DNA from: Hippasteria phrygiana
Lineage: Eukaryota > Echinodermata > Asteroidea > Valvatida > Goniasteridae
Direction: 5' to 3'
Assembly (NCBI GenBank): GCA_037893225.1
Contig: JAZGUH010000370.1
Span: 744,001-808,000 of the forward strand
DNA: 64,000 bases
The position numbers and the translations under genes are program-made. Every line of letters begins with the position of its first letter. The stretch's first letter is position 1. This document shows, piece by piece, positions 1,225 to 62,754 of the stretch. Under the pieces are notes generated by a model, which worked only from the letters and a program-made list of their open reading frames with translations, was not told where the DNA came from and ran no database searches.

Positions 1225-1464
1225 ATACCCAGCCACCGAGGATTGTCAATTGTTCAGACAACATTGTGACAGTCACTGATCCCAATTCGAACGGGGCGCT
1301 GGTCATGTTGGATTCGCCTGAAGTCATTGAGAATGACGTGTACACCCTCTCGCAAGAGCCCTACCCAGGTCATTTGTACGTCATAGGAAATACAAGTGTC
1401 ACTTTCACAGCTATGGACCGCAGTGGCCTCGAGGACACCTGTGAGGTCATTGTCACAGTCATTG
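1225..1464 (+). CDS. HYR domain 1 exon
   Basis: 80-codon phase 1-1 exon between a CAG acceptor and a gtaagt donor. It starts D-T-Q-P-P and ends DTCEVIVTVIG. It is divergent: the usual W..P...DN core reads VMLDSPEVIENDV, lacking the tryptophan, and the first cysteine motif is CS instead of CP. The two cysteines are kept. Confidence 0.85.
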
Positions 1465-10400: not shown

Positions 10401-13400
10401 TAGCTGTGAAGCATTTGAGACATTTATGTTAAGAGTTATGTACACTGTTTTTTGTCGTGTATTTTCAGACGCGGAGCCCCCAGTATTATCAAACTGTCCC
10501 AGTTCCATTGAGCTGTACCTCTACAACGAAAGCAGCAATGCCACGGCCAACTGGACTCCGCCGACGGTCTCCGATAATTCGGGCAACTTCACTCTGGACC
10601 AGAAGTTCTACTCCGGCGACGTGTTTCCGTTTGGCGTCACCGAAGTCGTGATCAACGCCACCGATCAGGCCCGCAACGCGATGGCCTGTGTATTCAACGT
10701 CACAGTTATCGGTAAGTTTGAGTAAGCTTTTGTGATGGGCAACGTTAAAATAGATGTAGCAAAATTTTAAGCATTCAGATTGTGTGTCATGAAAGTACAG
10801 GTTAAACATTATTAATTGAATGTATCATGTTGCTGCGGTTCATTTGTAACTCGTGCTACAATCCAGTGTTGCCCAATATTGCCCAACAGTGACCCATTTG
10901 GTATTCCTTCAAATATCATTTGGTTTTCCTACACTTTCCTAATATTTTACTGATTTTCCTTAAAAAAAATTCTTAATTCTTGAAATTCCTTTTTTCTACT
11001 TTTTTGTCCCACAACTGCAAACAAAATGTTGGTTAATATTTTTTTCCCATAAGTGTTTTAACACTTTCATATGAAAATCACACAATGAAGGGCTTGGGTG
11101 CAGGAGGTACCGCAACTTTACTTTCAAGAGCTTAGTTGAGGATGGAGCACGTGTGTTGTGAGTACAGAACATGCCAAATGAGGCTTGTGATGCTGTGGAC
11201 ATAGGTGGATTTCAACGAAAACTACTCCTGAAAGCCAGCAAAAGTCCTACTTTTATCCTAATTTAGTCCTCGGCCCTACATTTGTCCATTTTTTTTTAAA
11301 ATGTTGACAATCCTACTCTTCCAAAGCCCGTGGAGTAATAAATTTCAGAGATCAAAAAAGACAGATTATTCTCCAATAAAGTTACTGATTTTCTTCCGAT
11401 TACAAAATAATCTAAATCCAAAAATAGCATTCTGATTTGTTCTTAGGGAGTCGGGGTTAGTGAATATCTTGAAGTTTTAATATTTTCTCAATTCTCTCCC
11501 ATTCAGATCTCTCCTTCCCAGTCATACTCAGTTGTCCGGGCAACGCGAATGCAACCACTGACTCCGGCGAGCCAACGGCTAATGTTTCGTGGCCGCATGT
11601 GCTCGGGGCGGACAATATCGGAGTAGCCTCCGTGATCCCGTCCCAGGATCCAGGGACCCCGTTTCCGGTCGGCGTCACGTACGTCAGCTACACTGCCACT
11701 GATACGTCCGGCAACACTGACGTAGATAACTGCACCTTCTTTGTTGAAGTGACAGGTGAGGGGGCATGTCGTCGTGACAGTTACAAACGGGTTGTCACAA
11801 GACATCCCAAGTCAACTACAAGTCAGAAGTGTTGTCATACAAGTTTTCGGTCTAGGGGTGTGCATTTGCATGTAGTACGGGAATCGGGTACCCGATTGGA
11901 AAAAAAAAACAAAAAAAGAAAACATGAGTACCCGTTAAAGAAAGCAAATCTCGGAAATGGCTATTCATATTGTTTGTAAAGGTCTGCACGTTAAAGACGA
12001 TGTTGATTGCTGAGAGAAGTCTGCGTCATTTTGTAGTTTTATGTAGATTGCGTATTGTAAAATAGAACAGCCAATTATTTCTGCCATGAAATAACAAAAA
12101 AAAGGGAATTTTGAGAGCTATTTTTTATCTATTTTATTATCGGTTCGACAGATGATGAGGCTCCAGATTTTCTGGATTGTCCATCGGACATGACGTTCAC
12201 TAATGACCCAGGCGTCGGCGGCGCGTCCATCAACTGGACTGTCCCGACTGCCGTGGACAACGTCAACGTGACGGTCTTCGAAGCCTCGCACCAACCCCTC
12301 GACAATTTCACTGTAGGAGCGACGGAGGTGATGTACTTCATATCGGATGACGCCGGCAACAATAACACCTGTTCCTTTATGATTACGGTCACAGGTAAGA
12401 TTTTTCCACTTTCCGGGGCAAGATTTCTACTAATTTTTCTTGATTTTTGGTGTGACGTCTTTCAGATTTCTGGGCGATTTTTATTGGTCCTTAAATTTGT
12501 TATCATTCCAAAATTATCTCTGCAACCTGAAACGGTCTTGTCATTATAATGACCCTATTTTCTTTCTCCAAAATTTTGACCATATCCTTTGGAAGAAAAT
12601 GTATGTATTTTTCTGCAACGTCATACAAATTAAACGTCTCCGAACGTTTCGTGGATTTTTCATTTTCATCCAATCTTACCGCTGTACTTTTCCGACTGGA
12701 TTACACAACCTTCCCCATTCCTGCATTCAACGTCGAGCCCTCTGAATTTGGGTAATATTTTGCATCGTAAAGCTCAAAGATTTCACCAACTAGGACAGAT
12801 CATGCAAGACGGGGCTCTATAAGCGCGTAGCGTTCTTCTTCTTGCGCCAAATTCGTTAGTCACGTGACAGTTTTCCTTGACAGAAGTCTCACACACTTTA
12901 AAGCTTATAAAATGGCCTTTCCAGCTATATATAAAACACTATTTTCAAATTTTGCAACATAAGTGCCCTTTTTGCAGAGCGGGTCACAAATGTTAATCGC
13001 CCACGATCGACTATTCGGTGAAAACATTGTTTCTGCTGAACTCGGAAAGCCAAAGTGTGACTTTGTGCCCGTTTTGTGCTGCTGGGTAACATATTAACTG
13101 GGTAACAAACAAAGGACTGCGTGGGTTTTCTTTTGTTAGATGTTCATAGTGTAAGCATTACCAAAGACTCCTTGGTAAATTTCAATTTTTTTTTTTTTTT
13201 TTTGCAATATCAATTAGGATTTGGAAACTTCCTCTCCTAATTTAATATTAAATGCTAGTTTTATTAGTTTATGAAACTTACCAGAAACGAGTAATGTGTC
13301 TCTGAATTATGCAGAACGTGAATTTCTTCGTTTTCAGATGACGAGGGTCCAGTTTTCTTGAACTGCCCGGATAACATCACGGCTGAAACGGACCCGGGTA

Positions 13401-16400
13401 GCATCGTGGCATTGGTTAGCTGGGATCCTCTGCTGGCTGTCGACAACAGTGGGGAGCCCATCATGCCGACGAGCAACAGTCGCTCGGGCGACCCCTTCGG
13501 CATCGGTTCGACGCCCGTGACGTACATTGCGCTTGATCTGGACAATAATCCGTCGCAGTGCATGTTTGACGTGATAGTTGTTGGTGAGTATTGCAACTTT
13601 GCTTGCGGTGGATGGTAGACATCTGTTGATTACATGACCGGATCTTACGAAATGAGTCTTAAGGTCATTTTTTTTGACTTGTTAGTTTTTGTACTTGCAT
13701 TGGATAGAGCATACTTGGCTCTTCATTCTGATATATTACTCAGTTTGACATCCTGATGAATATGGGCATTATGTGGGTGAAAACATTGAGAGTTCCTATT
13801 GATTTTCACAGTATAAAGTCACGTTTAAGGGACTGTAACTCAAAAGTAACTCGGGCGACTTGTGACTCATTTTGTTGGGTTATTATTATTCATTCTTTCT
13901 GGTAAATGAAACCAAGGATTCTTCAAAAGTGCCCTAGGCACTGTAGCTCGGAAGCCTGAAGAAACCTGTAAAGAGAAGACAATGAGAAGAAGTTACAGTT
14001 TTAGAGGTGGGAGGAAAACCCCAGAAGAATATTCTGGGGAAAACCCACGGAATCAGGTAGGGACTGAAAACCCAATCCACATGTGGACCAGGGCAGGAAT
14101 CGAACCCGGGCCATGGCAGTGAAAGGCGGGGACAGTAACCACTGCGCCAACCTGGTTGGGTCACATTGTCAAACAAACAAGGGAAATTGACCAGGTAATT
14201 TTAAATGAATTTGTCAAAGTGAACAAAGAAAACTGGCAGGAGCGGGATTTGAACCCGCCACCTCTGGAATACCGTACCGGTAGTCTACCAACTGAGCTAT
14301 CTTGCCCCTATGTTGGCGGTCTCCCAAATTGTCAGTGTCTTTGTTCAGGAGGCGCTTATCAGAAGTCATAAACCCAATTTGCCGTATAGCCAGGGATCAC
14401 GCCCCCAACTTTATGATACAACCTGGGAAGCGACATTGCAGGGACCACTCACTGAGGAAAGGACTTTTTAGCTTTACATCGTCAAAAAGTTTTTTATTCT
14501 AGTACTGGAACCATGGATGTCTACAAAGCAAAAATGCTTACCGCACTTAGCTCAGAAACCTAAATGTTTACCTTTGTTTACCAACAGACAAAGAAGTCCC
14601 AGTCTTCGCGAACTGCCCGTCTGATGTGGAAGCGATCGATGCGGACGGTGACAACATGACATTTGTCAACTGGACGGAACCGACGGCCTCCGACAACACC
14701 GGAATGGTCAACGCCTCTGCTCCATCCCAGATGCCTGGCCTGTTCCGAGTCGGGACGACTCCCGTCGTGTACTTGGCCACTGATCCCTACGGAAACGTGG
14801 GCAACTGCTCTTTCAACATCATTGTCTTTTGTGAGTATACATCCTTGAGGGGTCTGTGGTCAATTTTTAAAAATCTTTTCTTTATCCCTTTTTGATCTCT
14901 TTTTGATCCTTTTCTATCCCCTTTTGATCCTTGTTTGATCTTTTTTGTTCTTTTTTTGATGCCCTTTTTTTTAATCCTTTTTTATCCCTTTTTCATCCCG
15001 GTACAGCCGTGAATATGCTTATGATAGCCTGTCCGGCAGATTTCAGCCTTCCGACCGACCCCGGTTCAAACGGCACGACGGTCTCGTGGCCGCCCCCAAC
15101 GTACAACAGCACCTTGATGGCGTCCCTCGCGTCCACCCGAGCCAACAACAGCCGATTTGGGGTCGGCCCGACGGTGGTCGAGTACGCCATCACTGGCACG
15201 GATGGAAGAAACGCCAGCTGTGTCTTCTACGTCACGATTACAGGTGAGTTGTATCATTTATTTCTGGTACCGAAACGAAGGATTCTTGAAGAGTTTATCG
15301 CACTGTAGTTCCGAATCCAGAAGAAACCTTTAAAGAGAAGACGAAGACGTTTTCAGTTGTAGAGGTGGCGGAAAACTCAAGAATTACCTGGAGGAAAACT
15401 CGGAATTGGGCAGGGAATCAAAAAAACCAATCCACATGTTCGAGGTCGGATTCGAACCCGGGTCAAATCGGTGGAAGGCGAGGGTAGTACCACCAGGCCA
15501 ACCCATATATTTTATTTATGTGCTGTCTAAAAGCCATTTCATAGATACTGCCATCTTTGCTTGATACCATCTTTTGGGGAGCGGTGGGTTAGGGACAAGC
15601 AGCATGACGATGTATGCTCTCCAGCGAGATTAGTGGCATGCACGTGCAACGCGTTTGATGGCACGTCTCCATGCAGATCATGCATTGTCATGGCACATAC
15701 CCCCAAAAAGAAAAAGATAGTGGTATCGAGCTAAGATGGCGGCGTCCGCAAAACAGCTTCTGGCTTTCTTAGTTGGGTGGCGTAGTTGCAAGCCTTTATT
15801 TTGGACCAGTCATTTCAGTAATAGATGGTTTGTCGGAACAAGGTTTGAAATCTCCAACGACTTGCAACAAGGGAGTAGTGAATAGAGGAATTTTGCACTC
15901 TTTTGTTTTCGTCTTTGTAAAACGTCGAAAGCTCTAACCAGAAATGAGATGTTACAACAATCTGCGTAATACTTTGGAAAATGTTGAGCAAGAAATCCAA
16001 TACTCTTGTTTATATCCGGAACACGTGTGCGGCAAAAAGTGCATACTTGTACTCGGCTTTACGTCGGTTAAAAGCTTGGCCCAATAGAGGAATTTCACAT
16101 TAAGCCCCTTCTGTGCACTTCCGGGTTGAAAGCGAGAATGTCAGTGGCAAATAGAACGCTTTTCAGCACATTCATTCATGCATGAATTAAAGGCAGTCTA
16201 CATGATTGGTCATTGTTGCAACTTTCAGGAATGGACGGAATTGGGGGTTAGTATTTTATAGGAAATATCGTTCTACTGACCTGTTCAAATTTTCCTGCTA
16301 TAGTTAGTACAACTTTTCTGCTTACCATTATTAAGCAGCACTATGAAATTGGGCCCTTGACCAGTTCTTAAAGGCATGCGACTTGAAAGTAGCAATTGGT

Positions 16401-19400
16401 TCTTGGGTATGAGAGAGATTTCTGATTGGTTGGAATTTTTGGTTTCTTTTCGTCTCCAGACGAGGAGCGCCCGGTCTTGGATTGCACACCGTTCTTCGAC
16501 GGGTACACAACTCCAGGGCTAGGCACCGCCACCATGTTTTGGACGGCGCCGACGGCCCGAGACAATGTCGGCATCACGAATTTGACATCTAACTACGAAC
16601 CAGCTGATCTGATACCAATCGGTGTTACAAATGTGACATACATAGCGGTTGACGCAGCAGGCAACATGGACACCTGCAAGATTTCCCTTCAAGTCATAGG
16701 TATTAAAAGTAAATTTTTAAACAAGGTTCATTGTTTTGTAACGAGATGGAAAAAAAGATAATCATTCTTTCAAATGTTATTTTACTTGTCTGGCCAATAT
16801 GAAACATAATTTCAAGAAAACTTATAGATCTATGTACTATTCATGCTGTTTTTGCATTACAAACGTTTCTATTTTATTATTTTTTTTTAACCAATTACTA
16901 TTTTGCTAGTAAAATAAGTTACGTTTGAATGAAGCATCAACCCAGATTTAGTTTTTAAATAATTACTTTACAAATGTCTAATCATTTGTGGCCTGGCAAT
17001 AATTCAGCAACCAAGAAAATAAGCATTTTCGGAGGGTTATATAGGTCCAAATATAGAAAAATAATAAAACATGCAGTTTGAAAATTTGTTTGAGAAAAAA
17101 AATAATCTGTTCTACTTTTAATGCTCCTTTTTTAGACGAAGTAATTTGAAGAATGCATTATGTACTACAATTGGATGCCTCAAAGGCAAAGTCCATTTGA
17201 TGTCCATTCGATGTTCATTTGATGTTCATTTGATGCATTCGATGTTCATTCGATGTTCATTCGATGTTCATTCGATGTTCATTCGATGTTCATTCGATGT
17301 GATCCAGTGTATTTACTATTTATGCCAGTGTATCTTTATCTCAAGCCTGTAATTGGTGGTTCTTCCGCTGTTGGCTGTGGTTAATAAATAAATATTATTT
17401 TGCTTTGCACGTAGATAACGAGGATCCCGTGTTTGCGTTCTGCCCGTCCAACATGGAGTTCATCACGGATGTGAATGGCAGTATCATCGTGCCGGGCATC
17501 GGCTTGCCAAACGCCACCGATAACGCTGGCCCTCCGACGGTCACGAGCGACTACAACTTGACTGCGCTGGAGGTGGGAGCCACGACACTTCTGACCTTCA
17601 CTGCAATCGATGACTCCGACCGAGTTGCCACGTGCACGTTGAATATAACGGTCACTGGTGAGTGTTCTAACTCTTCGTCAAAACCCACCTCAGTGGGAAA
17701 ACGGATTTATTTCTGGTGCCGAAATCGAGGATTCCTCAAAAGCGCACTGCAGCTCGCAAACCCGAAGAAACCTCGTTTAGAGCTTAATGTTCAGATCATT
17801 CCCAAAGGCGAACAGTTAAATAACTGTACTTTTTCAAAGTGAACAAAGAAAGTGGCAGGAGCGGGATTCGAACCTGCGACCTCCGGGTTACCGTACCGGC
17901 GCTCTACCAACTGACCGTTCATATCAGGAACCGGTTCCAGATTATGGAATCGAGTACCCGTACAACTTTACATTATCGCATTGTAACTTCCCAGACAATG
18001 AAAAAAAGAAAAGGTTTTGAATGTTGTTTGTTGGAAATTTTCAAAATTAAAACCCGACTACATGGGAAACCAGCACAGATTTCACGTTTATGACGCTCAC
18101 GAAAATTGACAATAGAGGGATTTACCGGTCGTGGTTTTTCTAGTCAAGGCATGGATAAGAGCCTCGACGGGACATAATAGACCTTTATCATGGTACAGCC
18201 ATTTTGTTTTTCTCCTATTAAAATCAATGTAACCAAACCGAGGCTGGAAGGACCAATAGTCTGGCACCTTCATTCATTATTTGGAATCACTATGCATAAT
18301 TGCTAATGCATACAGGGAACAAGACAAAGATGGTCACAGCATGATAAAGGTCTATAGCATGCCTCATCCACCATAAATACAACTGTATAAAGCTTCTGTA
18401 TAGCCATCTTTTGTGATATGCCGGCGCATGCACGAGCCGGCACACGCAAAGGCGGAGAAGTGATCATGTTTACTTAAACGGGCATGAGATTTTTCAGACT
18501 TTTGTCTGCACTAAGACTTTTTGGATTATTTGACGAAAAATAAATTTACAGTTAGACATTAATTTACTTAGTTATGTGAGCATTTGATTTTTAAATTTTG
18601 CAAAGACCCTCCTTACATCCGATAGGCATCGCAATTTATTACCAAACAAGCGAAAACCAGAGTAATTATCACGTCATACTCTACGACACGCACAACAATT
18701 TCTTAATCCTGGGATTAAAAACTCAAAGATATAAACCATCTCCGGTTCCCTCAATGATTCATATACTCAACACCCAATCCTCATAGTTAAGCTAATGCAT
18801 GTACCCACCTCCATTCATTTTTATGTTTATTTGTGGGGTTTTTGTAACTGTTTGGTGTCGTTTTTAAATTTCTTATCCAAGCATCTTTTTAGTAATAATA
18901 TTAAAATGTTGCAATTATTTCATGATTTTTTATATTTTTTTATATTCTACTTTTGTAAGTCAAGTTGTGTAAGTCTCTGACATTTTACTTGGTGTTTTTA
19001 TCTGAATAAACCAGAAATTGAATTAAATATAACCTGCACTTGCAGAAAATATTTCAATTTTCAAATGTCGTTACATTCCACCCGTTATGTGGACCTGGGT
19101 CTCGTATTACAGTGAAACTGAGTAACATTGGGCATCATTGAGAAAGGTTAACTTTCTTAGAGTTCAGGCATTCTCCTGAAGACGGTCAGAGCATACCGAC
19201 CGGAACGTCTAGTTTTATACCTCTGTTTCTTTTCAGAAGCATTCTCTTAATTGGGAAAATATTTCCACATGGTGTTTCTGCAAACCTTTCATTTAGTGGA
19301 GTGCTGTGGCTTAGTGTACTGAACTCGAGATCTGTGATACTGCAGATTGTAGGTTCGAGACCGGCTGGGGTCATGCTGCTTGTGTCCTTGAGCAAGGCAC

Positions 19401-22400
19401 TTTGTCACAAGTTGCTTCTCTCCACCCAGGAGTAAATGGGTACCTGTGAGGGCAGTGATGGTTATGTGTTTGATTAGCCCGTGTGCGCTTAACTTGCAGC
19501 CGGGGCTGTATACTCCTCAGGGAGTTGAGAAGGCTTCAGGAATGATTAATGGGCCCGATGAGCAGGGGTAATAATATTGTAAGCGCTGTGATATAGTTTA
19601 ATATGTTGAGCGTTCTTAAATGCCGGTTATTATTATTTATTAGTATCTCTGCCATGTAAAGCCTCAAATCGGACTCGTATTACAGTACTGACCGCCTTTT
19701 TTGTCCGCTATGACCAGATACTACTCCGCCGGTCATATCTGACTGCCCCGTGGACGTCGTCGTCCCCACTGACCAAGGTGTGTCCACTGCCCAGGTGAGC
19801 TGGACCGAGCCGACCGCAGTGGACAACGGTCAGCTCGGCAACTTCCAGCCGGACATTCCTCTAGGTAGCACATTTCAACTAGGCACAACGGAAGTCATCT
19901 ACACGGCTCTGGACGCGGCTGGGTTGACGGCCGAATGCCGGTTTAACGTCACCGTCGAAGGTGAGATCTTTGTGATGTGCTTCCTTGAAACAAGCAGATA
20001 AAGTCGCTCCGCAGCTGTCAAAGTTTGAAGCAGAAATAACCATTTTCGCACTGAAAAGTTGATTTTGGCAAAGTTGAACAGGCACCAATCTTTTCGTAGA
20101 CAACACAAACGTAATATTTACTGACAAATGTGGGGGGAAAAATAAAGGTAGTGTACACGATTGGTAATCCAATTATTTTTTTTACTGAATTATTACGAAA
20201 TAACTTACTAGACTGTAAGTTAATAGTAGTCTCATTCACTCCTGTGAAATGATGGCACCAGGTGTGCTGTCGTTGTCAAAAAAACTGGAAATTATGCTTG
20301 CATTCCGGGCACGTCACGCATCCAGGTAGCCACGCGCGCCTTGACTAAAGACTATCATCCAACAACGCAAAACTTTGAACAGGTCAGTGGAACGATATTT
20401 CCTATAAAATACTAACCCCCAAATCCACTCATTTCTTAAAATTGCAACAATGACCAATCATGTACACTACCTTTAACATCTGACAATTAGACTGGTGCCA
20501 CACACAGTACAGCCTGTATATGCAGCCAAACCGCTAAAGACCAAGGGTACCACTCTGAATTTTTCCAATTTCCCAATAGTCCAACTTTTCTGAACCAAAC
20601 TGGCGTCCCTGAAATGTCAATGATTCCCAGACAAAGCGGGCATTTTTATTGGATAATCGTGTCCATCATTTTCTAATGTCAAATGATCATTCCAATCATA
20701 GCAATTTTAGGAGCAATGTGTCCCTTAAACTCGACTTTTTTATCCCCACATACAGATCGAGAAAGCCCAGTCATTTCAAATTGTCCTACAAATGTCGTCG
20801 GTGGGAGTACCCCGGGAGCGAGTAACGGCAGCGTGTTCTGGCTGGCGCCGTCCGCGCGAGACAACGTCAACGTGGCAAGCTTCGACTCGAACTTTGCTCC
20901 TAACGACGTGCTGCCGCTGGGAGCGACGGAAGTGGTGTATATCGCTGCGGACCAAGCGGGCAACGAGGCTAATTGTACATTTGAGGCCATCGTTTCAGGT
21001 AAAGCATTCCTTTAAAGTTTCGTCTACAACTCTGTGCACTGAAATACGAATGCATGAACCCTGCACATTGAAGGTGTTAAAATATCGTGTCTTGTTTTGT
21101 GCTGTGCTGTGTGGTATAGACGAATTTCACATTAGCTCCGTCTGTGCACTTCCTGGTTGAAAGCGAGGCTCTCGGTACTAAGCAAACGGTGCTATTCAAC
21201 AAATCCATTCATGCAATTCATTCGGCAAATTCATTCTCGATCGACATGTTTAGCTATTTCACAGAACGGCGATTGTCAAAACTGCACTTTTTGGACGACT
21301 CGATCGGTGACATTTCAGAATTCAAGATTTTGCCATGTATAAATTGCTAACATAGTCTCGCTTTTAAGCCTGGAATTGCACAGACCGGTGCTATTTTCGT
21401 CTCTTTTGATCTGTGTGAAATTCATCTATGGTATGCATGGTTGACCCTAACCCCTTCAGTGCATGCAAAATTGGGGGATTTGGGACTGTCGGGGTGAAAA
21501 TTAAGTTTCATTTTCTCAACAAGGAATCCTTTTCTGATACCTGTAGACTCCGAGAGCCCCACGTTCACGTTCTGCCCCGCAAGTCTGGCGATTCCCACCG
21601 GTGTAAACGGCACCTATGTCACACCCTCTTGGGAAATGCCGAACGCAACGGACAACGCGGGACCGCCGATGGTAACCAGTGATTACTACGGACAACCGCT
21701 GATGGTGGGCACCGTCACAACGATAACGTACACCGCGTTGGATGGATTCAATAACATGGCGACATGCATGTTCAACGTGACGGTCACGGGTGAGTTAATC
21801 GTGAACATCAAGTACTTTCAATTAGTGACTCACTTTTTTAGTATTGCAGTCGAGGCTGGATCACAGTACAAAGCTGTCCAAACGTTTTTTGAAAAAAAAA
21901 TGTTGCTTCAGAAGACGATGATCTCTTTAAATTTGCTGGTACCCGCTATGCTTTTGCACGCATACGATGAAATGTTTCTCCCGAAAGAAAAATTGTCAAA
22001 TCTTGATGTGCACATGCGCAGTTGGAATACCGAACTGGCTTTTTGATACGCGAGTACATATGAAACACTGACCTCGTGGCCTAGTGTACCGGACTCAAGA
22101 TCTTGGTGATACTGCAGATTGTAGGTTCGAGACCGGCGGGGGGGTCATGGTGCTTGTGTCCTTGAGCAAGACACTTTGTCACAAGTTGCTTCTCTCCATC
22201 CAGGATTAAAATGGGCACCTGTGAGGGCAGTGATGGTTATGTGTTTGATTAGCCCATGTGCGCGTAACTTGCAGGATGATTGAGATTGCTATTAAATTAT
22301 TCTGGTTAGGTATTTTGTAATAATTCAGTAAAAAAAAATTGTTGGAGGATTACCAATCGTGTACACTACTTTTTTTAAGGGGGTTATTGACTAATAGTCA

Positions 22401-25400
22401 TTAAAGTACTATATGACTTTTCCGTATATTGTTGGGACTGTTATGTGTGGTGCTTTCCAATAACGTACAAGAAAACAATCGCATGCTTACTTAATCGGGA
22501 CTTGAACACACCTTAACCTTTCAATTTTGTGTGTTCCTGTAGACGGAACGGCTCCAGAGATTACGAACTGCCCGTCCAACGTGTCCGTCCCCACCGAACC
22601 CAGCTTGGCAGTGGGCCAAGCCAACTGGACCGAGCCGACGGCCACGGACAATGTCGGAGTGGTCAGTTTGGTCTCCAACTTCAACTCCAGTGACCTGTTT
22701 GATATCGGGACCACCGTGGTGACTTACGTCGCTACGGACGGTCAAGACTTGACCGCCGTCTGTCAGTTTAACGTCACCGTGAAAGGTGAGTTGAATAATT
22801 TAACTCTACCCACATGTATGTATTGCCATAAGTCAAATGTCACAAGACACATTCACCTTTTTCATGGTTTTTTTTTTTTTTTTTTTTTTTAGAACTGTTT
22901 AACAGTTGGTAATATTGACAATCACAGACTGTCATTGGATTGCTGCTTTAATAAGCTTTAATTTGATATATGTGATGCGATCAAGCAAAATCAGTCTGAA
23001 GTAGGCCCTGGTCAATTTTGGGATTTCTACATATTCATTTGTAGCGTACTTCGAGCTCCATATTAGTGAAAACCCCAGGTGAATACGACCTTAGGTTAAA
23101 AAGTTACAAATATTTGAACACTGAGAAATTCAAGTTTAAAGTTAGTTACTTTTACTTAAGTCATTTTTAGCATGTTTGTAATACGTGTCATATTTTCATG
23201 TGAAAGAAGAATGTTTTTCCCTTGTGATTTTTCCACTACGAATGTATTTTTGCCCATATCTCAAAACAAGGATTGCCGAGTTCTGACCGATTTTGCTTGA
23301 TCGCATTACATATCATTGGCCCATGGTAGGTGCTATGGTTGCCGAGCTACTTTAAAAACATTAAAAATTTCATTACGAGCTTGTAAATTAAATTTTCTAA
23401 TTAGCTGTATACCCAAATAAGGTTGTAAAGTGTTTTGCAAGTGATAAACAGTAAAAATATGATGAAAAATTGAAATACCCTAATTGTAGGAAAGTACCTT
23501 CTCCTTCCTCCTGATCCCTCGTAACTTCACCCCCTTGGTAACCCCCCACCCCACCCTCCTCAGATATTGAAGTCCCAGTCCTGACGGGCTGCCCAGGCAA
23601 CCTCTTTGGCTCGACTCAGACTGGCCGGCCAAACAGCACGGTGTTTTGGCCCTCTCCGTCGGCCAGCGATAACTCCATGGCCAGCGTGGCCTTCGGGTCG
23701 AACTACCAACCCAGTGACCCTTTCCCCATTGGGGGGACGACCGTCACCTACGTCGCAACGGACGACAGCGGGAACTCGGTCAACTGCTCGTTTGTGGTGA
23801 CCGTCACAGGTAAAAACACATTTGCGATGTGATCAGATGGTGAAATTTGTCATTCTTGTGTTATATTAACCCCTTGCGTACGGATGAAGCCATATGGCGT
23901 CAAAGAAGAAAGTGCCACCAGGCCGGATGACGCCATTGGCCGCCGTTTGTGCAGTTTCAATCCATTGTTGGATTATTGTTTGTCATGCTTGACTGCACAA
24001 ACACATTGTAGCGGTTTGATTTGGCTGCCAGAACCGCTGCAACACCCCGACGTCTCCCGTAAAATACCGTGCCCAAGGGGTTAATGAAGGCTCTGTTTTC
24101 AAAACTGTTTTATTCATGATTCTAGGATGTCTGTTACTTGAGTTATGCTGTCAGGAATTCAAGAAACCCAGCTGACTTCATTGTGAGAAATCATGCTTTA
24201 AACTTCTGCGTAACTCATTGAGTGTGGGAAAAAAGTGACCGGAAGATTGCAGATTGTTACATTTAAAATGATGGAATTTTTAGTTCATATTTTCAGGAAT
24301 GATAATTTTGATATTAATAATTTAATTGGTAGCGGAAGCTCAAATTGTCTTTAAAAAAAATCTAGGGGACTGTGGTGGCATTATCTACAATGCAGGTTCG
24401 GTGACATGTGAAGTGTTTCCCCCAGATTACATCATATTTTTTTAATTGAAATCCCCAATACAAGGCTAAAAAGCATAAAGGGTTAATACGATCAGAGGTG
24501 GTGGGGTTGGCGACAAATTGCCGTTCATATTTTTCGTGAAAATCCACATCGGTGCATCGATGCAGCAAGTGTGTACAGTGAGCTCTCTGAAGCTTTTTTG
24601 GTGTAAATTTCATTTTCGCAAGCGTCGTGTTTTATTTTTTCCATGTTGGTTTTGAAAATTTTGAAAATTCCCCGCAAATGACATTCAGAAACTTTCTTTT
24701 TCATTGTCTGAGAAATTACTAAGAAATATGTTAATTCGGTTTACGGGTACTCGCTTCCATAATCTGGAACCGGTTCCCGACATTAACGGTCGGGTCATCG
24801 GGTGCCCGGCTCGGATGCACAGCCCTACTCGGAGGTCATCAATTTGCACAGAACTACTTTAGCTGCAGGTGGTTGCCATGGTAACGGAATACTTTTTTCT
24901 TTTCTTTTTCGAAGACTTTGAGGTCCCTGTATTCACCGTCTGCCCGACCAATCTGATTCTGAACCTTGAGAACGTCGGCGACGTGTCCGTCGTTCCGTCA
25001 TGGGAAACCCCCGTTGCTACGGACAACTCGGGCGTCGTCAACATTACCACCAACTACACCGGCGGGGCGCTCAATGTGAACACGACCACTGTGGTGACCT
25101 ATACAGCGGTCGACCTCTCTGGTAACCCGGCGACCTGCATCTTCAGCGTTGCCATAGCGAGTAAGTATGGTACCATTTAACATGAATCTAGTGACATTTT
25201 AGAGAAGACTTGATACGTATTTCCCGCCATGCAAAATTGCGTTTCTGGAAAAAATTTGAGCTTTTATTACATTTCTTTACCTGGGGTTTGCCCAAACAGT
25301 TTAAAACTGGTTTCCATTGGGGCCCTCCATACATTTTAAATTAAAAATGAATACTTAATATACAAAAATGAATATTTATTCGTACAAAAATATTTACACA

Positions 25401-28400
25401 AATGCACCAATATTGACACAAATGAATCTATACATATATCTATTGTATACAGTTGAATGTTCAGCTTTCCAGTATATGGTTATCACTAATTTTACGGGAT
25501 GGGTGAAAAACTCACAAAAACAACTTTTTTTTGGGGGGGGGGGGGGACGAGGGGAAATTCCCATCCAGTTCCACATTACAAATTTTACGGGATGGGTGAA
25601 AAACTCACAAGAACAACTTTTTTTTGGGGGGGGGGACGAGGGGAAATTCCCATCCAGTTCCACATTACCGTGGCAACTAAATTATAAGTTTGTAGATCGG
25701 TGCAAATGACAGAAATATCACTTATGTATGGTTTTATGTAGCTCCGATTTAAATGTAGCTAAGGAGTTCATGGTTCTCAATTGTTCAGGCAGATTATTCC
25801 ATATACCGGCACGACTCGCAGCGAAACTTGTGGCGTAGCATTATTTTTCAACGAAAGGAACTTTCAGTGCCATGTGGATTGATTGCCTTTAATTAGCTCA
25901 ATCTTTTTTGAAACTCGTATTAACGTTCCTTTATTAATTGTGCAGGTGCTGTTGCCCCCAAAATCGCAATATGTCCGTCCAGTTTCACTATCAATGCTAC
26001 CCAAGGTCTGGACACGGGCGTGGCTAGCTGGACGGCACCCACGGCCTCCGACGACCAAGAGGTGGTCAGCTTTACGGCCAGTCTGACCTCCCCGGCAACG
26101 CTGACCGTCGGGGTGACGGTGGTCAACTACACGGCGGTGGATAACCAGGGTTTGGTGACGGTCTGCGAGTTCACCATCACTGTGGCAGGTTTGTGTTGCG
26201 TCATGGTTCAACTTCTGTTAGCGTTTTCGGGAACCTATTATAAAAAAAACTGAATCATAAATTTGGGCATTATCCCTGGCTGAATGGCAATATGGGTTTA
26301 TGACTCCGGTCTATCGCCACCGAACAAAGACACTGACAATTTGAGAGACCGCCAACATAGGGCAAGATAGCTCAGTTAGTAGAGCGCCGGTACGGTATTC
26401 AGGACAAGGGCGGATCAAGAACACAATTTTTTGGGGGGGCCAAAAAAATTTTAGGCCGTTTTTTTTTTTTTTTTTTTGGGGGGGGGGGCTCCATGGCCCC
26501 CTTTGGCCCCCCCCTGTATCCGCCCTTGACTCAGGAGGTCGCAGGTTTGAATCCTGCTCCTGCCAGTTTTCTTTGTTCATTCAAATTTACCTCGTCCTTT
26601 TCCCTTGTGATTTTTTATTTATTTATTTATTTATCATTTTTACATTTTTTTTTACTCCACATCTCGTATCTACAAGAAAGTCTCTCTAGTTGTACTGCTC
26701 ACCTGGCATCTAAAATGGTATTTTATTTCCCGCTTTTTGACGGAGCGAGGTTAAAAATAATGAAATAGAATTTGCCTCTTTCTTTGAATCCCATCCCACA
26801 CAGATGTGGAAGACCCAGTCATCACTAGGTGTCCAACTACCACGGTAGCGACCTTAACTCTGGGTGCCGGTGTTGCAAATCCATTCTGGATCGCCCCGAC
26901 GGCTTCGGACAACGTCGCCGTGGTCTCGTTCCTATCCACGGCCAATCCTCTGGACAACATGCCGGCTGGGACCAACCCGGTGACGTACACGGCCCTGGAT
27001 GCTGCTGGAAATATGGCGGTGTGCAGTTTTGACGTCGTCATTTTTGGTGAGAAGTTAGGCTTTATTTTTAAAAAAATAATAATTTTTTTATTTATACTGT
27101 ATGAGCGCCTTCGATTACCTTTCCCGAGCTTACTCGCGCTGGCGCGACACCGTTCGATTTATGTTTGACGTCATCATTCGTGCTTACTCGCGCCAGGCCC
27201 GAGTGAGCGACCCGCAGAGCCGGTTACTTCGGGAAGTATCCCACAGTGCACTGCAACATCTGCAGTAGCACAACGCACTCGGCGTTATTTTCAAAGCGTG
27301 GTACTTTTGCACACCGGACGGCGTCATAAAAAGACATCAACCTCAATGCACCGAAGTATAATCTCTGTAATCACGGTTACCTTCCATCAAAACTAGGTCA
27401 AGCATCGTCAGCTTTCTCCGTCTTTCTTCTAAAAAGATCCATGATTTCGCTCATTTCGCCCGTGAATAATTTAATTTTTGTACGTCGCAATGTGTCAAAG
27501 TTCACATAACTTCCCCAGAGTTTGCACGAAACCGTTCATTTATTTTGCTCTACTGCGCATGTCCGACATCGCACGCAGTGCAAGCGCGAGTAAGCTCGGG
27601 GAAGGTAATCGAACGCGCTATTTGTGGGTTACCAGCCAAAATGCTGTTGGTGGGTTACCAGCCAAGATACTGTTTGTGGGTTGTCCACTGTCAGATTTTG
27701 CTTAGAAAGTATTTAGAGTACCATAATTTGAGCACAAGTAGGCCTACCGACAGTTGAGTGCGAGTATCAAACTTTTAATACGAGTACCTAAATTTTGAGT
27801 GTGAATATCGTTTAGTACTGAACTGAGTTTGAGTATCAAAACATGTACTGAAATTTGTGTACAAATACCAACATTTGAGTCTGAGAACTTTGCGGTATGA
27901 GTACGAGTACCTTTTTAAGGGCGGCATTTATTTGCTTTGCTGTAATTTTCATAAATGAATGGATTTGGGGGTTAGTATTTTGTAGCCAAAAATGCTGTTC
28001 TTAAATAGTCTGGTTCCCTGACACTACTTCAGACAAAACGGAGCAATTTATAGATGTCGGGGGACAGTTTTTACCAAAAATAGTCGGCCGACCATCGCTG
28101 GAAATTGATAGAAAAATTCCACTTTTTTTAAATGACAGCACGCCAGGTGCCATTATTTCACAGGATGCTTGAGACTATTATTTACTATAAAGTTACGGTA
28201 TTTCATAACAATTCAGTAGTTTTGTTTTACGATGTTTCCAAATGTTGTATAATTATTACCTTTTAAATCAGTACTCGAGTAGTACTCGAGAACGAATACT
28301 ATAACACAGGTCTTTTCTATTCTCTCCGTATGTAGATAACGAGGCGCCGGTCTTCACTTTCTGTCCGTCAGCTCTGGACTTTGCCACGTCGTCCAACGGC

Positions 28401-31400
28401 TCCTATGCCATTCCCTCGTGGGAGAGCCCCAACGCCACGGACAACTCGGGTCAGGCCAACGTCACGTCGGATTACAGCGGTCAGCCTTTGGCCTTAGGGA
28501 GCACCACACTGGTCACGTACACGGCGACGGACGTAGCGTCCAACATTGACACCTGCAGCTTTAACGTCACCATTATCGGTAAGCATGTTAAGGGGAGGGT
28601 AACGTCCACGCAGGGCTCCAGAGGGAAAGTTTTGGGGTTCACAAACAATTTTACAAATCGTGGGGGGGGGGGGGGGGGGGGCAAACTGCCAGTATTTTAT
28701 TAAAGTTGTTTATAGGCATGTTTATAGTCAGCTTGATACAGATAAATATAGAGGGTAGCACTTGAAAGACTAAATAAAATAAAAATTATGGCATAAACTT
28801 GAAGGAATTGTAGCTATGAAAGCTTATGCCATAATTTTTTGTTTTTTTGTTTTTTTTTGGTTTTTGGGGGTTTTTTTTCGAGTGGTGTTTTTTTCTCTTA
28901 TTAGACCAGTCTAGTTGGTAACCATTTTTTGTATTTGTATTAGTACTTTTACGGGTTAAAACAAATTGTCCGGACTGATTTGTCTAGAAATAACCCCCGT
29001 CATGGCATTTACAGTCCAACTTTGTTTTACACTAAAGGGGAGGTGAGTTGGTCTCGCCGACGGTGGAAGTTACCCCGCCTGGGTCTTTTGGTCTGAAAAT
29101 TGGGATAATTTCTTTGATATCTATTGAAGATTTGTCCTCTATTTAGATCTGGACCCAGGAAAACCGTAAGGGTGGTAGGGCTGGCAACCTAAAATGTGGC
29201 CAACCCCACCACCTCTGTTGTAGCCCTTTACCTAGAGTGGCTTTTAGCCTTGTATTGGGCGACTTTCATAAAATAACTTTCCAAAAATACATCTCCGATA
29301 TTTAAAAGCGTATCCTTCAAAACGGCATTCAAAGTGATTTTTTTTTTTCCCCGCCACAAAAGTTTCCGCCAACAAGTGCCCTTCTGAAAACTGCAAAAGT
29401 TGCCCCCATGTTTTGTTTACCGCTGCCGCAAAGATTGTAGATTCAAGAGCTCTGATTTATTTGTCTATTTTTGAATAATTTGATTTTGCACCACAGATGG
29501 AACGCCTCCAGCCATCTCCAGTTGTCCCGAGAGTTTCATGGTATCCACTGACCCCAACCTCTCGACCGGTCAAGCTAACTGGACGGAGCCCAGTGCCGAG
29601 GACAATGTGGGAGTGGTCAGCTTCGTGGCCAGTCGGAACAGCAGCGACTTTTTCTCCCTGGGTACGACGGAAGTGAGTTACGCAGCCACAGATGCGTCTA
29701 GCTTGACAGCAACGTGCAGCTTTAATGTTACTGTTCAAGGTATGCGATATCAACCCGACGTTTCTATGTTCACTGATATTTAAAGGAATGACGGCCTATA
29801 AAAAGAAAATGATGTCCTATTTGAATGAGAGGAAATACCATTGTCAATTTTTAAAAATTTCTCATTTTCACCCATTCTGTGGTGTGGGGTGACATTATGA
29901 CCCTTTTAATTGATTAGGTCTTAAAACCAGTCATGCAGTCGAGACCATCACAAGACCCTGCAAGACCAACACAATACCATCACAAGACCTTCAGTCTTAA
30001 TTCAAGTCTCGAGCTATTCAAATGAACTGTAATAAAAGCATTCCTTTGTCATGGTTTATGCCTGTTACTTGTGCCTGTAATAAGATGGTCGTGTGGATGG
30101 TCGTGTGGATGGTCGTGACTACATCACTGCTTAAAACCTCTGTTTAAATCGCAGTTTAAATCATTTCTTTTAAAAAGGTTACTCTTAATCAATTATTCTG
30201 TTGTAGCTCCGATTTTGTTTTGATTTTTTTTATATATTATATATTTGTTTGTATTTTATTTTTTAATTTGTTTGCTTGTTTGTTGTTGTTTTTTTTATTT
30301 TTTTTTTTTATATTTTTTGAGGTTTTTAATGTAAAATGCTACATTAAGAATGAATTATAAATATTAATCTTGTACCCCACTAGATACAATTCGACCAGTT
30401 ATCACCGGTTGTCCTAGTGACATTGCGCTGAATGCTACAGACAGCGTACCCGTTGATTGGATACCTCCTGCCGCGACGGACAATGTGGGCGTGGTGAACA
30501 GTAACTCCACCCACATGCCCAACGACAGCTTCGCCTTAAGCAGCCAGACGACCGTTACCTACCAGTTTGAGGATGCCGCGGGCAACGCTGACAAATGCAT
30601 GTTTCGTATCTCCGTTTACAACGCAACTATTCCAGGTACGATTATTCTCGGTCTTGACAAAGTACCAGCCAATACAAGACTTTTTGTGACTCTGGTGGCA
30701 GCAGACATGCCAGTCCCTTTAATTAGTTCTGAGCATGTGCGCCTGGTTCTGAGCATGTGCGCCTGGTTCTGAGCATGTGCGCCTGGTTCTGAGCATGTGC
30801 GCCTGGTTCTGAGCATGTGCGCCTGGTTCTGAGCATGTGCGCCTGGTTCTGAGCATGCGCGCCTGGTTCTGAGCATGCTCGCCTGGTTCTGAGCATGCTC
30901 GCCTGGTTCTGAGCATGCTCGCCTGGTTCTGAGCATGCTCGCCTGGTTCTGAGCATGCTCGCCTGGTTTTGAGCATGCTCGCCTGGTTTTGAGCATGCTC
31001 GCCTGGTTCTGAGCACGCACGCCTAGTTCTGCATGATCATGCATTATTACATTTCCTTACCCAAGCCCCAGACACTTAAAAACTGGTTTCCATAGAGTAC
31101 CGAAGTCTGACGTCAGTTGGCACGTCAACTGGCTCCTAAACAAATGTAGATTTTGACTGTTCCTTTAACAGCCAGTCGTGCAAACACATTGACACAAAAT
31201 AACAAAAGTATATTGGCTCCAAACATTGCATTGACGTCATCACTTCAGTACTCTATTGGGGCCCTGCATACATTTGTTTATTAAAAATGAATATTTACAC
31301 GCGTACAAAAATAGTTACACACAAAAACAAGAATATTTACACAAATGAGTCTAAAATAAATTATGGATGTATCCATATAACAAACCCTAATAATAGCATG

Positions 31401-34400
31401 TACACCTTGAATGGGAAAAATCAGAAGGGAGGGTCCTTTTTTTTTTTTTTTCTTTTTTCTTTTTTACATTGATGAAAACAATACTTTAACACGGAAGTCT
31501 GGCGGAAAAAATGAAGCTTATTTAAAATTGCGATTCGTGGCGAAATAGCTGTATTATTTTAATAAAACCTGCTACCAGTCATTACTTTCAATCATAAAGG
31601 GGCCATTGTTTAATTACCTTCTACCGCTTCTATAGGTGGTCTACCTCCGATGTTCGTTTCCTGCCCCTTGGACCAGATAGTGCCGACCGAGCAAGGGCGT
31701 TATAACGCCTCTGTCACCTGGGTGGTTCCCACGGCAACTGACAGGGAGAGCACGCCTACGGTCAGCGGAACCAAAAACCCCGGCGATTATTTCGGTGTCG
31801 GCAATACGACGGTCACGTACACCGCCATCGACTCGTCCGGCCAGACCGATACTTGCGTGTTCTTCGTTGTAGTCCGAGGTATGAGATTTTCTTTTATACG
31901 TTGAGATTTAGCAGACGTTCGTTGTAGGAATTTGGGAAGATAAATTCCGGGTTTCTGTCGAGCAGTTGTGGAGGGCGTGGGGGATTAAAACATTGAACAC
32001 TCTTGGAATTGTTGTGAAAAAAATAGTGTTGCCTGAATTTAGTAGCATTGGCCTAAAGTACAGTGGTGTGCAAAATTATTCGAACACCTGACATATCTGA
32101 AGAAATTGATATTTAATGCCTAACAATGCCTGGTTTACATTTTTCACCTGTATTAAATAGAAAAGGTAATTGTGAGCATACATGTAGCTCACATTAGTAT
32201 CTGCCAGTCCTACCATCTTTTTTATCAAACTTTACTCTAATATTTAGTGTGTCCACCCTCGGCAGCAATCACTGCGGCACCTCTTTCGGGCATAGTGTCT
32301 AAATATTTCCTGAGAGTTTCTACACTAATGCTGTTACAAGTCTTATAAAGTTCATTCCAGAGGGTTTCATTTGAATGTACATTGGTATATTGATTGCCAT
32401 TTCATCACAAACAACTAAAAGTACCTAAAATATGCCAAGTGTTCGAATAATTTTGCACACCACTGTAGGTGATTCTGAGAATAATTTCTCGTGAGATGTT
32501 TTCCTGAGAATTAAATTGTCAGTTGGGATATTTACCACAAATGAAGAAGGTCAGAAAGACGAGGGATGTATAACGACCAGGTTTTTTTCTCTTTTTTTCC
32601 AAAATCTATGGCAATTATTTAAACACTAATATTATAGCAATTATTTCTAATGTATTCATTGTTTTTGAAGCCGATTGTTTTCAGGTTATCAGTTGGGGGG
32701 TCATGCTCGTTAACCTTGCCAAGCTATTTTGAATTAGGGCAACCAAACACGACCTTCAGGCAAACCTGTTATTCTGAATGTGATGCGATCAAGCAAAATC
32801 AGTCGGAACTCGGCAATCCTTGTTTTGAGATATGGGCCAAAATATGTTCGTAGTGGAAAAAGCAAAATGGACTTTTCCCACAAATACAGAAGGGAAAAAC
32901 TTTCTTCTTTCGCATGAAAGTATGACACGTATTATAAATGTGCTAAAAATGACTCCATAAAAAGTATTGTAACTTTAAACTTGATTTTCTCAGTTTCTTT
33001 CTTTTGAATGTGCCGGTGTTCAAATATTTTTATCTTTTTAACCAAAGGTCGTATTCACATGGGGTTTTCACTAATATGGAGCTTGAAGTACGCTACAAAT
33101 GAATATGTCAAAATCCCAAAATTTACCAGGGCCTACTTCAGACTGATTTTGCTTGATCGCGTCACAAATGACTAGTTGGTGCCAACAAATTTCCTGATGG
33201 CCTGAAAATATGTGAATCAACACATGTAGTAGCCCATGAATCTTCTCTTTTGATCCTTGAAACTGCGCAAAAAAAATCAAAAGTGAATTGTGGGGACCGT
33301 ACACGAGTTACTCCCCTCCCCCCCCCTCCCCCAAAGATCGGCAGGAAAAAATCACGCCTGTCCAGAGCTAGGTTTTTTAGAAAGAAAAATTGAGTGATTT
33401 GTTAAATATTTTTGATTGATGTATTTCAGATGAAGAGAGCCCTGTTCTCACGAACTGCCCGTCGAGATTTGACGTACTACTTCCTCCATCGGACTCCACC
33501 ATCAGCGTTATCTGGACAGAGCCGACCGTCACTGACAACTCCGGAGTGGTACGTTACGTCGGATGTATCTATATTGCATCCGTTTCATTTGTAATAGGAC
33601 ATATGTTCTCGCGAAATTGGACGGAACTGCAGAGGTCGAATGAGTTATTTGTGGATTTTGAAAGAGAAATACATTCTCTTTACAATACTGTTTGTGTTAT
33701 TGGAATTGGATGTGAAGTTGAGAATTTTTGTTTTGGGGATTTTGAGGTAATTGGGGGCGAACCCAGTTATTATTTTTATCGTACATTTTCACATGTGGTC
33801 ATTCCATAAATTTGGGGTCCAAAAATGAAATTTTTGGTGTCCCTGTTACATAGTGACATGTATAAGATTTTGCAATTCCAGACACATTCTTGAATGCCTT
33901 CTATCTCCAAGAGTGATTGTGTAAAGCAAAGTACCTGCCAAACAAGTAAAAAATAGTTTTAAGTCAATTTTAATGATACCTGATGGGAAATTACACAGGT
34001 CGGGTGTAACGGGGACACGCAGCTTTATGTTCCATACCAAAGTCTATATATGGTTAAGTTTTCGATTTAACCCTTTCAGTGTCATATTCTTTGTCGAGCG
34101 TGAACAGCTCAAGCAGAAAAACAACCAAAGATTTCACCCTCAAGAGTTGATTGAAAGGGGGAAATGTTGTGTGCAAAGTTTGTTCCATGAAAATTACTCT
34201 TCCATATGGTGAAAAAATGAAAGTCATAACTGCTAAAATATCAAAGTTACGGCTGTTTTCTCTTCTGGCCCACTTTACTAAACAGGAAACTTGTTTGTCA
34301 CACGAACAAATGGCACTCCATGCAAATGACTGTGGAAAAAAACTTCAGATAGAAGATGGAATGTTTTGCGTCGGGGGATGATGTAAATTAGAACAGATGT

Positions 34401-37400: not shown

Positions 37401-38912
37401 GTTCTGTAAATGGAGGTTAATTTGGTAATTCTACTCATTCTGTAGATCGAGGTGACCCGGTCATTACTGGATGCCCATCCGGCCAGACCGTCAACATCTT
37501 GTCCACGACCGATGTCGCCGCTGTGTACTGGACAACGCCAACGGCCAACGACACCAGCAACCTCACACTGACTTCGAACCACAATTCGGGCGACACCTTT
37601 GAGTCCGGTTCGACCCGAGTCACGTACACCGCGACGGACTCGTCCAGCAATTTGGACACTTGTACCTTCCTCATTGTGGTCCAAGAAACATCTCGTAAGT
37701 TTTACAATTTTGATCTTTTTGGCGGAACTCATTTTGAAAAATAAGGGGTCGCCCTTGTCAGAAAATATTGCCAGGTGTGACCCGAAAATAAAATTTAGAA
37801 ACGGTCCCTCCTTCCCTTTTTTCGAAAGACAGGACACTATTAACATGACACTAATTTATTCAAAATTACTAGTCGGTTGCCCTTGTTTGACGATACAGTT
37901 GAATCGTATCCTCATTGAGTGATCCCCACAATGTCGCTTCTCTGGTTGTATCGTAAAGTTGGGACCTGATCACTGGCTATATGGCATTCTGGGCTTGACT
38001 TCTGACTAGCGCCCACTCGAACAAAGACACTGACAATTTGGGAGACCGTCAACATAGGACAATTAGCTCAGTTGGTAGAGCGCCGGTACGGTATTCCGGA
38101 GGTCGTAGGTTCGAATCCCGCTCCTACCAGTTTTCTTTGTTCACTTTGAAAATGTATGTGTTTTATTTGTTCAATACTGTTTTCCCAGAATTTTGTGATA
38201 GAAACCTTTTGACAACAGGTGTAGGGTGATAGACTTCAAGAAACCTTTTTTGGACATTAAATTTTGTTACGAATTACCTCCGACTTGAATCGGTGTAACC
38301 CTGGAAACGATGGCTTTGGCTATTGCGAACTTTGACCCTGGTCATCTAGAAATAAACTGTTTTTATACTGGTCTTCATTACAGCAACTTACGAGACCGAT
38401 GGGACCTTGGAATTAGTCAGGATAGCATCTGTGGTTAGTCCATTTACTGCAAACGACATCCCGAGCAAACTGGCTGTGCTGAGAGATGACGTAAGTCGAG
38501 GACCGACATCCATGCATTGGATTTGTACTGTCCAATAACGTACACTTGACTAGATCCCCCCTCGGGCCTGTGAGTGACCACACGGGGGTCGTATTTTCCT
38601 GTGGCCAAAGAACGAGGGAAATATGACTCCTGACGGGGGGATAGACGTGCACTAGTGACCGAAGTATTTCAGTGAAACACATTTATGTTTTATAATACAT
38701 CACAGTCCAATATATTCCATGAGAAAATGAGATGTTTCACAGTTTTATAATTGATTGGTTTTCATTCAACAAATGGAGGTTTCTGAGCTGACGTTTTGGT
38801 GTATTTTGAGGTTATAAATATCAACCAAACATCCAAGAATGTTATGTTTTAGTTGCGCAGTAACAAACAATTTCACATGGACAGCAAGATTGGTTACAAC
38901 TCCTTCTGGATG

Positions 38913-55625: not shown

Positions 55626-55788
55626 ATACTTACCTGGCTCAGGAGATACCATGATCATTCAGGTGGTTCTCCCAAGGCGAGGCCCCACCATTGCACATCC
55701 GGTTAGGATGACCTTTGCGATTCCCTCAAATGTAGGGAACTCGGGAGTACAATTTCTGATAGTGGGGACTGCGTTCGCGCTCTCCCCG
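55626..55788 (+). ncRNA. U1: U1 snRNA copy 1
   Basis: Starts ATACTTACCTG, the 5' splice-site-pairing end of U1. Contains GAGATACCATGATCA (stem-loop I), ATTGCAC (U1A loop of stem-loop II), the Sm-type AATTTCTGA, and the terminal GACTGCGTTCGCGCTCTCCCC hairpin with UUCG loop. Length 163, as expected for U1. The stem-loop II region (CCCCACCATTGCACATCCGG) differs from copies 2 and 3. Confidence 0.96.
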
Positions 55789-55800
55789 TACAAATAATCA

Positions 55801-56118: not shown

Positions 56119-56337
56119 AATTACTTTTTTTGAACGGCTTTCTTACCAACGTGCTAGTGCATTTTAATAAACTGATGCTTCTTTGAGTTGCTTCAATTCT
56201 TCTAACAAAGTAACATGTTTTATCCAATATCATGAAACAAACCATGTCATGCTTAAACTCATTACTTGACTGAATTACTGACAGTATTTGCCAATTTTGT
56301 TGGATTGTCTTATTTTTGAACTCCCCACCCACCCCCA

Positions 56338-59738: not shown

Positions 59739-59750
59739 TACAAATAATCA

Positions 59751-59759: not shown

Positions 59760-59790
59760 ATGAGACTTTAAAGGCAGTGTGCATCTGCTA

Positions 59791-62743: not shown

Positions 62744-62754
62744 TACAAATAACA

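Follow-up and report, generated by a model that had tools for sequence, protein, structure and literature searches.

We analysed a 64,000-nucleotide stretch of the genome of the sea star Hippasteria phrygiana (contig JAZGUH010000370.1, positions 744,001 to 808,000 of the forward strand; hereafter the window, in whose own numbering all positions are given), which carries a long array of exons coding for HYR domains. Our central conclusion, to which we assign a probability of about 0.85, is that exons 18-29 of this array (16460-29739) represent a three-exon cassette, A-B-C, present in four tandem copies, and that they encode part of the outer stalk of a giant sea-star protein that spans the membrane once. 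As judged from sequence, both the order of these exons and their relatedness to one another fit copying in blocks. An earlier note, made from the letters of this DNA, had proposed that the array grew by duplication of blocks of three exons and about 3 kb, not of single exons.

A profile built from seed exons recovered HYR stretches on the + strand alone; there are 37 of them in the window, lying between 1221 and 37684. Since two are the halves of one domain, there are 36 domains in all, of which 35 are single exons and one, domain 32, is split by a phase-0 intron lying inside it. As far as sequence matches go, candidate phase-1 borders, with an AG upstream and a GT near the end, can be assigned to all 36 domains (the donor of domain 30 being doubtful), and each of the 12 exons 18-29 has the AG before it and the GT after it in phase 1. 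All five HYR exons or open reading frames (ORFs) given to Pfam (18, 22, 29, 30 and 36) matched PF02494 at 44-68 bits (cut-off 21.7); the other 31 domains were scored by our own profile only. The count of 36, the numbering and the edges given in the earlier note were reproduced, with exon 18 beginning at 16460 and exon 29 ending at 29739. On the + strand, block 1 comprises exon 18 of type A (16460-16699; recognized by profile, Pfam, motif and splice sites), exon 19 of type B (17415-17657; profile, splice sites and trees) and exon 20 of type C (19718-19960; profile, motif and splice sites). Block 2 has exon 21 of type A (20756-20998) and exon 23 of type C (22543-22785), each with profile, motif and splice-site evidence, and between them exon 22 of type B (21547-21789; profile, Pfam and splice sites). 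The A slot of block 3 is occupied by exon 24 (23564-23809), which has the A motif and the splice sites and an unsettled place in the trees; it is followed by exon 25 of type B (24915-25160; profile and splice sites) and exon 26 of type C (25946-26188; profile, motif and splice sites), the latter with a long branch and the donor GTTTGT. Block 4 consists of exon 27 of type A (26804-27046; profile, motif and splice sites), exon 28 of type B (28336-28578; profile and splice sites) and exon 29 of type C (29497-29739; profile, Pfam and splice sites). The HYR domain is expected to fold as an immunoglobulin-like beta sandwich. A structure model of the exon 28 domain (predicted local distance difference test score, pLDDT, 95) is made of strands with no helix, its nearest PDB folds being S-layer, dystroglycan, Big_3, PKD and cadherin domains (E 4.5e-3 at best, with no fold reaching 0.001 or less); the exon 29 sequence found no match among solved structures at E 0.01.

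Within exons 18-29 the mean identity is 0.452, 0.478 and 0.490 for domains three, six and nine places apart, as against 0.325-0.356 at the other offsets; the domains thus resemble one another most at a spacing of more than one, as in a super-repeat. When every third exon is placed in the same class, identity averages 46.7% within classes versus 34.2% between them, a difference matched by 16 of 100,000 order shuffles (10 of 100,000 by BLOSUM score), which is the rate expected if A-B-C is the single best of the 5,775 possible groupings. The offset-3 run that pairs 18-26 with 21-29 (score 4.52) was reached by none of 2000 shuffles of all 36 domains (none of 500 in a repeat), and the offset-6 run that pairs 19-23 with 25-29 beats all 2000 (1 of 500 in the repeat); with shuffling confined to 18-29, the runs at offsets 3, 6 and 9 had p values of 0.0038, 0.032 and 0.60. 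The offset identities and the order shuffles bear out the claim that the order A-B-C occurs four times. Among the sequence signatures offered with that claim, FW.[AS]P[ST]A.DN is found in 18, 21, 24 and 27, and [GDS]L[TV][AT].C in 20, 23, 26 and 29, neither occurring in any other of the 36 domains. The type B signature failed as written: P..ATDN[AS]G matches domain 34 only and none of the four B exons. Corrected to one free letter, P.ATDN[AS]G, it is present in 19, 22, 25 and 28, plus 3 and 34; PSW, said to be found in most B exons, is present in three of the four (22, 25 and 28). Type-specific residues further occur at 15 alignment columns across the four copies in three species (9 or more of 12 in one type and no more than 3 of 24 in the others), and several of these columns fall in loops of the modelled exon 28 domain.

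The tree of the 36 domains places each of the three types on one side of a branch, with support of 100/96 for B, 90/88 for C and 45/82 for A, and of 500 bootstrap trees 496 retained B, 451 retained C and 215 retained A (391 when domain 24 is left aside). Hence the separate clades foreseen for the types are firm for B and C and weaker for A. The contrary outcome, a grouping of neighbours instead of every third exon, was not seen, as each of the neighbour triples 18-20, 21-23, 24-26 and 27-29 occurs in 0 of the 500 bootstrap trees. Approximately unbiased (AU) tests rejected three of these triples (p 0.01, 1e-7 and 2e-4), with 24-26 borderline (p 0.057), and forcing neighbours together cost 35-79 log units. 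A 58-row tree of the window and its relatives including Asterias, in which just 7 of the other 24 window domains served as background, supported A at 95/89, B at 100/98 and C at 99/96. Trees of 106 rows, covering the window, its two closest orthologues and all 24 other window domains, were made in a quick and a careful version. The careful one kept B in all 500 and C in 445 of 500 bootstraps, C having a Shimodaira-Hasegawa-like approximate likelihood ratio test (SH-aLRT) value of 91 in the group table but 0 in the newick label; the quick one kept A (96) and gave C a support of 0.

A search with the end of the array and the C-terminal region of the window gene led to the Asterias amurensis protein P0121 (57% identity over 99% of the searched region), and a search from P0121 to P0239 (Asterias), P0240 and P0242 (Patiria miniata) and P0241 (Acanthaster planci). 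None of the proteins listed by three such searches was near-identical to the window product, which probably sets the window species apart from these three, although a further paralogue in one of them could also account for it. P0240 (LOC119724809) and P0241 (LOC110978223), named "uncharacterized" or "Hyalin" in databases, are collinear with the window gene: P0240 has one partner each for window domains 1-10, 12-15 and 17-36 (34 in all) and P0241 for all 36. The best hit is the collinear window domain in 34/34 and 34/36 cases, respectively; orthologous domains are mostly 50-87% identical by BLAST, and 35 of the 36 orthologous sets (34 with three rows, two with two) form one clade. By our own profile these proteins have 51 and 52 HYR domains, the additional ones lying upstream, and SEA and EGF appear in their Pfam lists, with 57-59% identity to the Asterias C-terminal query region. 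Both carry the same four A-B-C cassettes, the offset-3 run recurring with 0/500 shuffles in each, and in a tree of concatenated cassettes every window block groups with its counterpart from the other two species (98/96, 89/92, 100/100 and 100/99). Since the orthologues share them, the cassettes are therefore old; by this comparison, the four date as a complete set from before the parting of the window species, Patiria and Acanthaster. Patiria and Acanthaster belong to Valvatida and Asterias to Forcipulatida. The type string of Asterias P0239 is (x)BC ABC ABC ABC (y)C, and in the 58-row tree its members join A1, A2, A3, B3 and C3 (starred support), C1 (93/93) and B4 (90/87). These placements make block 3 distinct before the Valvatida-Forcipulatida split, and three cassettes probably existed by then. 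A scrambled order of the Asterias cassettes (A1-B4-C2 in one block), hinted at by the same tree, was dropped, as five constrained alternatives were not rejected (p 0.07-0.41).

Newer copies are found in the relatives. In P0239 five consecutive domains have been copied (75-88% identity), as has a B-C pair (95/92%), with 0/500 shuffles each; in P0121 the triple 33-34-35 has been copied (96/94/86%; 32/500), in the Patiria hyalin-like protein P0001 a C-B-C string (85/91/89%; 3/500), and Patiria P0254 has a period-3 array with up to 96% identity (0/500). Block copying, by these alignments, continues in the family. Single domains have also been copied in tandem, as in the first six HYR domains of P0242 (88-96%) and in an offset-1 run of P0249 from Anneissia (0/500 each), with weaker offset-1 runs in P0241 (17/500) and P0240 (82/500). 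The family as compared here grows by blocks and by single domains, and 18-29 are a block case; the proposal of three-exon duplication is upheld, and its clause "not of single exons" is limited to 18-29. The single-domain copies favour a history in which the twelve exons arose by duplication of single exons and every third was afterwards made alike by gene conversion or positional selection. We consider this history improbable, because no neighbour triple appears in the bootstrap trees, three of the four are rejected by the AU tests, and relatives contain recent duplications that span two, three and five domains in a row. P0242 (LOC119741140 isoform X2) is a paralogue in which the counterpart of domain 17 is directly followed by that of 33, the 15 domains 18-32 with all four cassettes being absent from the annotated isoform. 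The N-terminal half of P0121 consists of a repeated series of HYR, EGF-like, SEA-like and HYR stretches, with 92-100% likeness among its HYR domains, which has the look of a very recent expansion by mixed-domain blocks. Upstream in the window, domains 3-5 and 8-10 (2426-9759) show signs of an older five-exon block, with an apparent third copy upstream of domain 1 in the orthologues. Such a block is likely: the signal has p 0.014 within domains 1-17 but is reached by 2000 of 2000 shuffles of the whole array, a like five-offset run in the relatives is reached by 1/500 shuffles in P0240, 20/500 in P0241 and 287/500 in P0242, and the trees group 3 with 8 in 199, 5 with 10 in 307 and 4 with 9 in 0 of 500.

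Several observations weigh against the four-copy interpretation of 18-29. The offset-9 run, taken alone, is not significant, being reached by 210 of 2000 shuffles (50 of 500 in a repeat). The order of copying is unsettled: blocks 2 and 4 pair at 71/71, and pairings of 1 with 2 (p 0.23) or 1 with 4 (p 0.26) are not rejected; nor are single swaps of the Asterias A1/A2 kind between sets (p 0.19 and 0.07). The relatives were compared as annotated proteins, their exon structures standing outside the comparison, and the function proposed below is read from domain content alone. A blastn comparison of 13 introns with one another (E up to 1e-3) yielded 18 matches, of which three link introns in the same place of different blocks. 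The first, 19306-19499 with 22076-22274 (direct, 91%), was discarded as a block trace, being a dispersed element with further copies elsewhere in the window; the second, 16187-16293 with 20370-20476, is inverted and so is not block homology; the third is only 18 bases long. The first was the only one traced to its other copies. Beyond the dispersed element and the 18-base stretch, no homology found by blastn among these introns links the blocks, and the length and break points of the copied segment can therefore not be read from them. The present start-to-start spacing of the blocks, 4.3, 2.8 and 3.2 kb, agrees with the proposed 3 kb as a description of today's array, their size at the time of copying being beyond what the introns record. 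The dispersed repeat itself is about 200 bases long, with copies 78-91% identical at 19306-19499, 22076-22274, 35279-35501, 60391-60585 and 60713-60800 (the last partial and inverted); two of them lie in the introns between exons B and C in blocks 1 and 2, where they could pass for block homology.

A further point of this kind concerns the A slot. The careful 106-row tree keeps A with domain 24 in 17 of 500 bootstraps and without it in 473, so on these trees 18, 21 and 27 go reliably together and 24 lacks a reliable grouping with them. When the 16 domains of P0001 were added to a tree, the B domains of both genes came out together as a single clade in 937 of 1000 trees, but the C domains of the two genes did so in 56 and A in 0 of the 1000. 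After its first domain P0001 reads BCBCBCCBCBCBCBC, with no A, so that B is followed by C in 7 of 7 cases, as it is in 4 of 4 in the window. The B-then-C string occurs in 4 of 210 HYR proteins, all from sea stars, two of which (P0240 and P0241) were in the training set of the profiles; the 210 were drawn from the 269 listed by three protein searches (120 of 646, 120 of 139 and 32 of 32 hits). The A and C profiles were set aside as survey tools, as they made 5-bit calls on bacterial HYR proteins too, and only the B-then-C string was used. Because another Patiria gene repeats B-C without A, the B-C pair is, on present sequences, an older or wider unit than A-B-C. It could then be that the cassette is a B-C pair, whose A slot was filled later and, in block 3, separately from another HYR exon, a scenario compatible with block copying. 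The alternation in P0001 speaks for it, as does the departure of domain 24 from A in the P0001 and careful 106-row trees, where 24 stands with 6 in 335 of 500. Yet domain 24 has the A motif, A including 24 is one clade in the 36-row (45/82), 58-row (95/89) and quick 106-row (96) trees and is not rejected in the careful one (p 0.24), and the grouping there of 24 with 4, 9 and 12 has a support of 24/4; we regard this scenario as unlikely. The P0001 tree also bears on convergence, by which A, B and C would be alike through occupying fixed places in a three-domain structural repeat. The 15 type-specific columns shared by four copies in three species would suit such a cause, as would the type order, which is largely kept in Asterias too. 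Against it stand whole-domain identities of up to 62% (23/29) and 59% (22/28) and the union of window B with P0001 B, and we give convergence hardly any credence.

By its candidate splice sites, each HYR domain is a self-contained exon with phase-1 sites on both sides, and with such borders crossing-over in introns could add or remove whole sets of exons with the frame intact. We infer that three consecutive exons were copied at a time, by unequal crossing-over or segmental duplication through introns; the introns have since lost nearly all resemblance. More tentatively, and with the odds against it, A, B and C may be distinct kinds of HYR that stay in a fixed order as a functional unit owing to the fit of their facing loops (B-C and A-B); recombination would then have added and removed only whole cassettes in register, beginning earlier than the divergence of the main sea-star orders. 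Exon-bounded domains could in that case expand in mixed blocks that are themselves selected for, which would contradict a possibility considered in the literature, namely that repeats enlarged through exon shuffling gain only single domains.

The remainder of the gene lies on the same strand, its 5' end being outside the window. Exons 1-17 (1225-15243), the upstream part of the array by profile and splice borders, are collinear with the Acanthaster (17/17) and Patiria (15/17) orthologues. Exons 30-36 (30384-37694), identified by profile, splice sites and orthologue collinearity, include the split domain 32 (33430-33548 and 34923-35046). Exon 30 (30384-30616) lacks a good donor at the expected position and its frame stays open for about 50 codons more, making its end uncertain. 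The array is followed by a first SEA-like domain in two exons (38384-38490 and 40092-40323; the second ORF sub-threshold in Pfam, E 0.17, and P0121 continuing through in likeness), an EGF-like exon (41531-41644; Pfam EGF 2.6e-7), a calcium-binding EGF exon (42973-43092; EGF_CA 3.7e-7), and a SEA domain in two exons (44358-44485 and 45490-45709; SEA 2.6e-15), the last three passing their cut-offs. Further on come a third EGF with no Pfam match, a hydrophobic run and the start of a cytoplasmic tail (47389-47464 and, after an uncertain splice join, about 48202-48606); the run was read by eye, is the same in P0121 and is followed by a basic tail. The first SEA, the third EGF and the membrane span were assigned solely by likeness to P0121. 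This order (SEA, EGF, EGF_CA, SEA, EGF, membrane span) is that of the sea-star HYR-SEA-EGF-TM (LOC119724809) type, and by its relatives the predicted product is a sea-star membrane protein with 36 or more HYR domains, SEA-EGF-EGF-SEA-EGF and a hydrophobic span. The second SEA contains GSIVV, which we take to be the usual place of self-cleavage. Domain content and general background suggest that the protein is probably a long, membrane-anchored rod with an adhesive or protective role, and that its outer part may be held non-covalently after SEA self-cleavage at this candidate site.

Elsewhere in the window there are three matches to U1 spliceosomal RNA (130-136 bits) on the + strand within about 7 kb (55626-55789, 59572-59735 and 62580-62744), which may form a U1 cluster next to the HYR gene. 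Seven tRNA-like hits on both strands (178-250, 513-585, 14234-14306, 34435-34508, 38057-38125, 56026-56098 and 62848-62920) are perhaps copies of a tRNA-derived short interspersed nuclear element (SINE). A 39-bp minisatellite of 67 units (56341-58967) is strongly C-rich on the + strand (GC skew -0.36 over 56001-60000) and open in several frames.

None of the open-licence PMC papers listed in our literature searches had a title dealing with sea-star HYR exons duplicated in blocks. Repeat proteins such as nebulin are already known to have grown by duplicating several domains together, and the window array is a clear and well-supported further case. In a 2006 survey of domain repeats, whose authors judged one sample in their study too small, such duplication is the rule, with nebulin as an example (PMC1553488). 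The seven-domain super-repeats of nebulin likewise reflect an array grown by duplicating a fixed multi-domain block; in the chicken nebulin presented in that survey, the exon borders lie inside domains, whereas the window gene has one exon per domain with borders in the linkers (PMC1553488). What the window array adds is a block of three despite one phase-1 exon per domain, cassettes common to at least three species, a B-C unit in a second gene, and fresh blocks of two, three and five in relatives. This makes it a clean case for timing block events against species splits and for the question of growth one domain at a time. Sea urchin hyalin is likewise an echinoderm outer-surface protein with HYR (hyalin) repeats; it is described as forming an extraembryonic matrix (PMC9382459), whereas the window protein has SEA, EGF and a hydrophobic membrane span. 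This predicted span argues against the window protein being a secreted component of the hyaline layer. The Patiria miniata P0001 shares with the window gene a tandem series of HYR domains of types B and C but differs in having no A slot, a hydrophobic run near the N-terminus (by eye) and, in its Pfam list, PF12248, the FAMeT domain. P0001 can in turn be likened, by description and not by sequence, to the sea-star footprint proteins Sfp5 and Sfp7, which are described as FAMeT plus hyalin repeats (PMC9382459).

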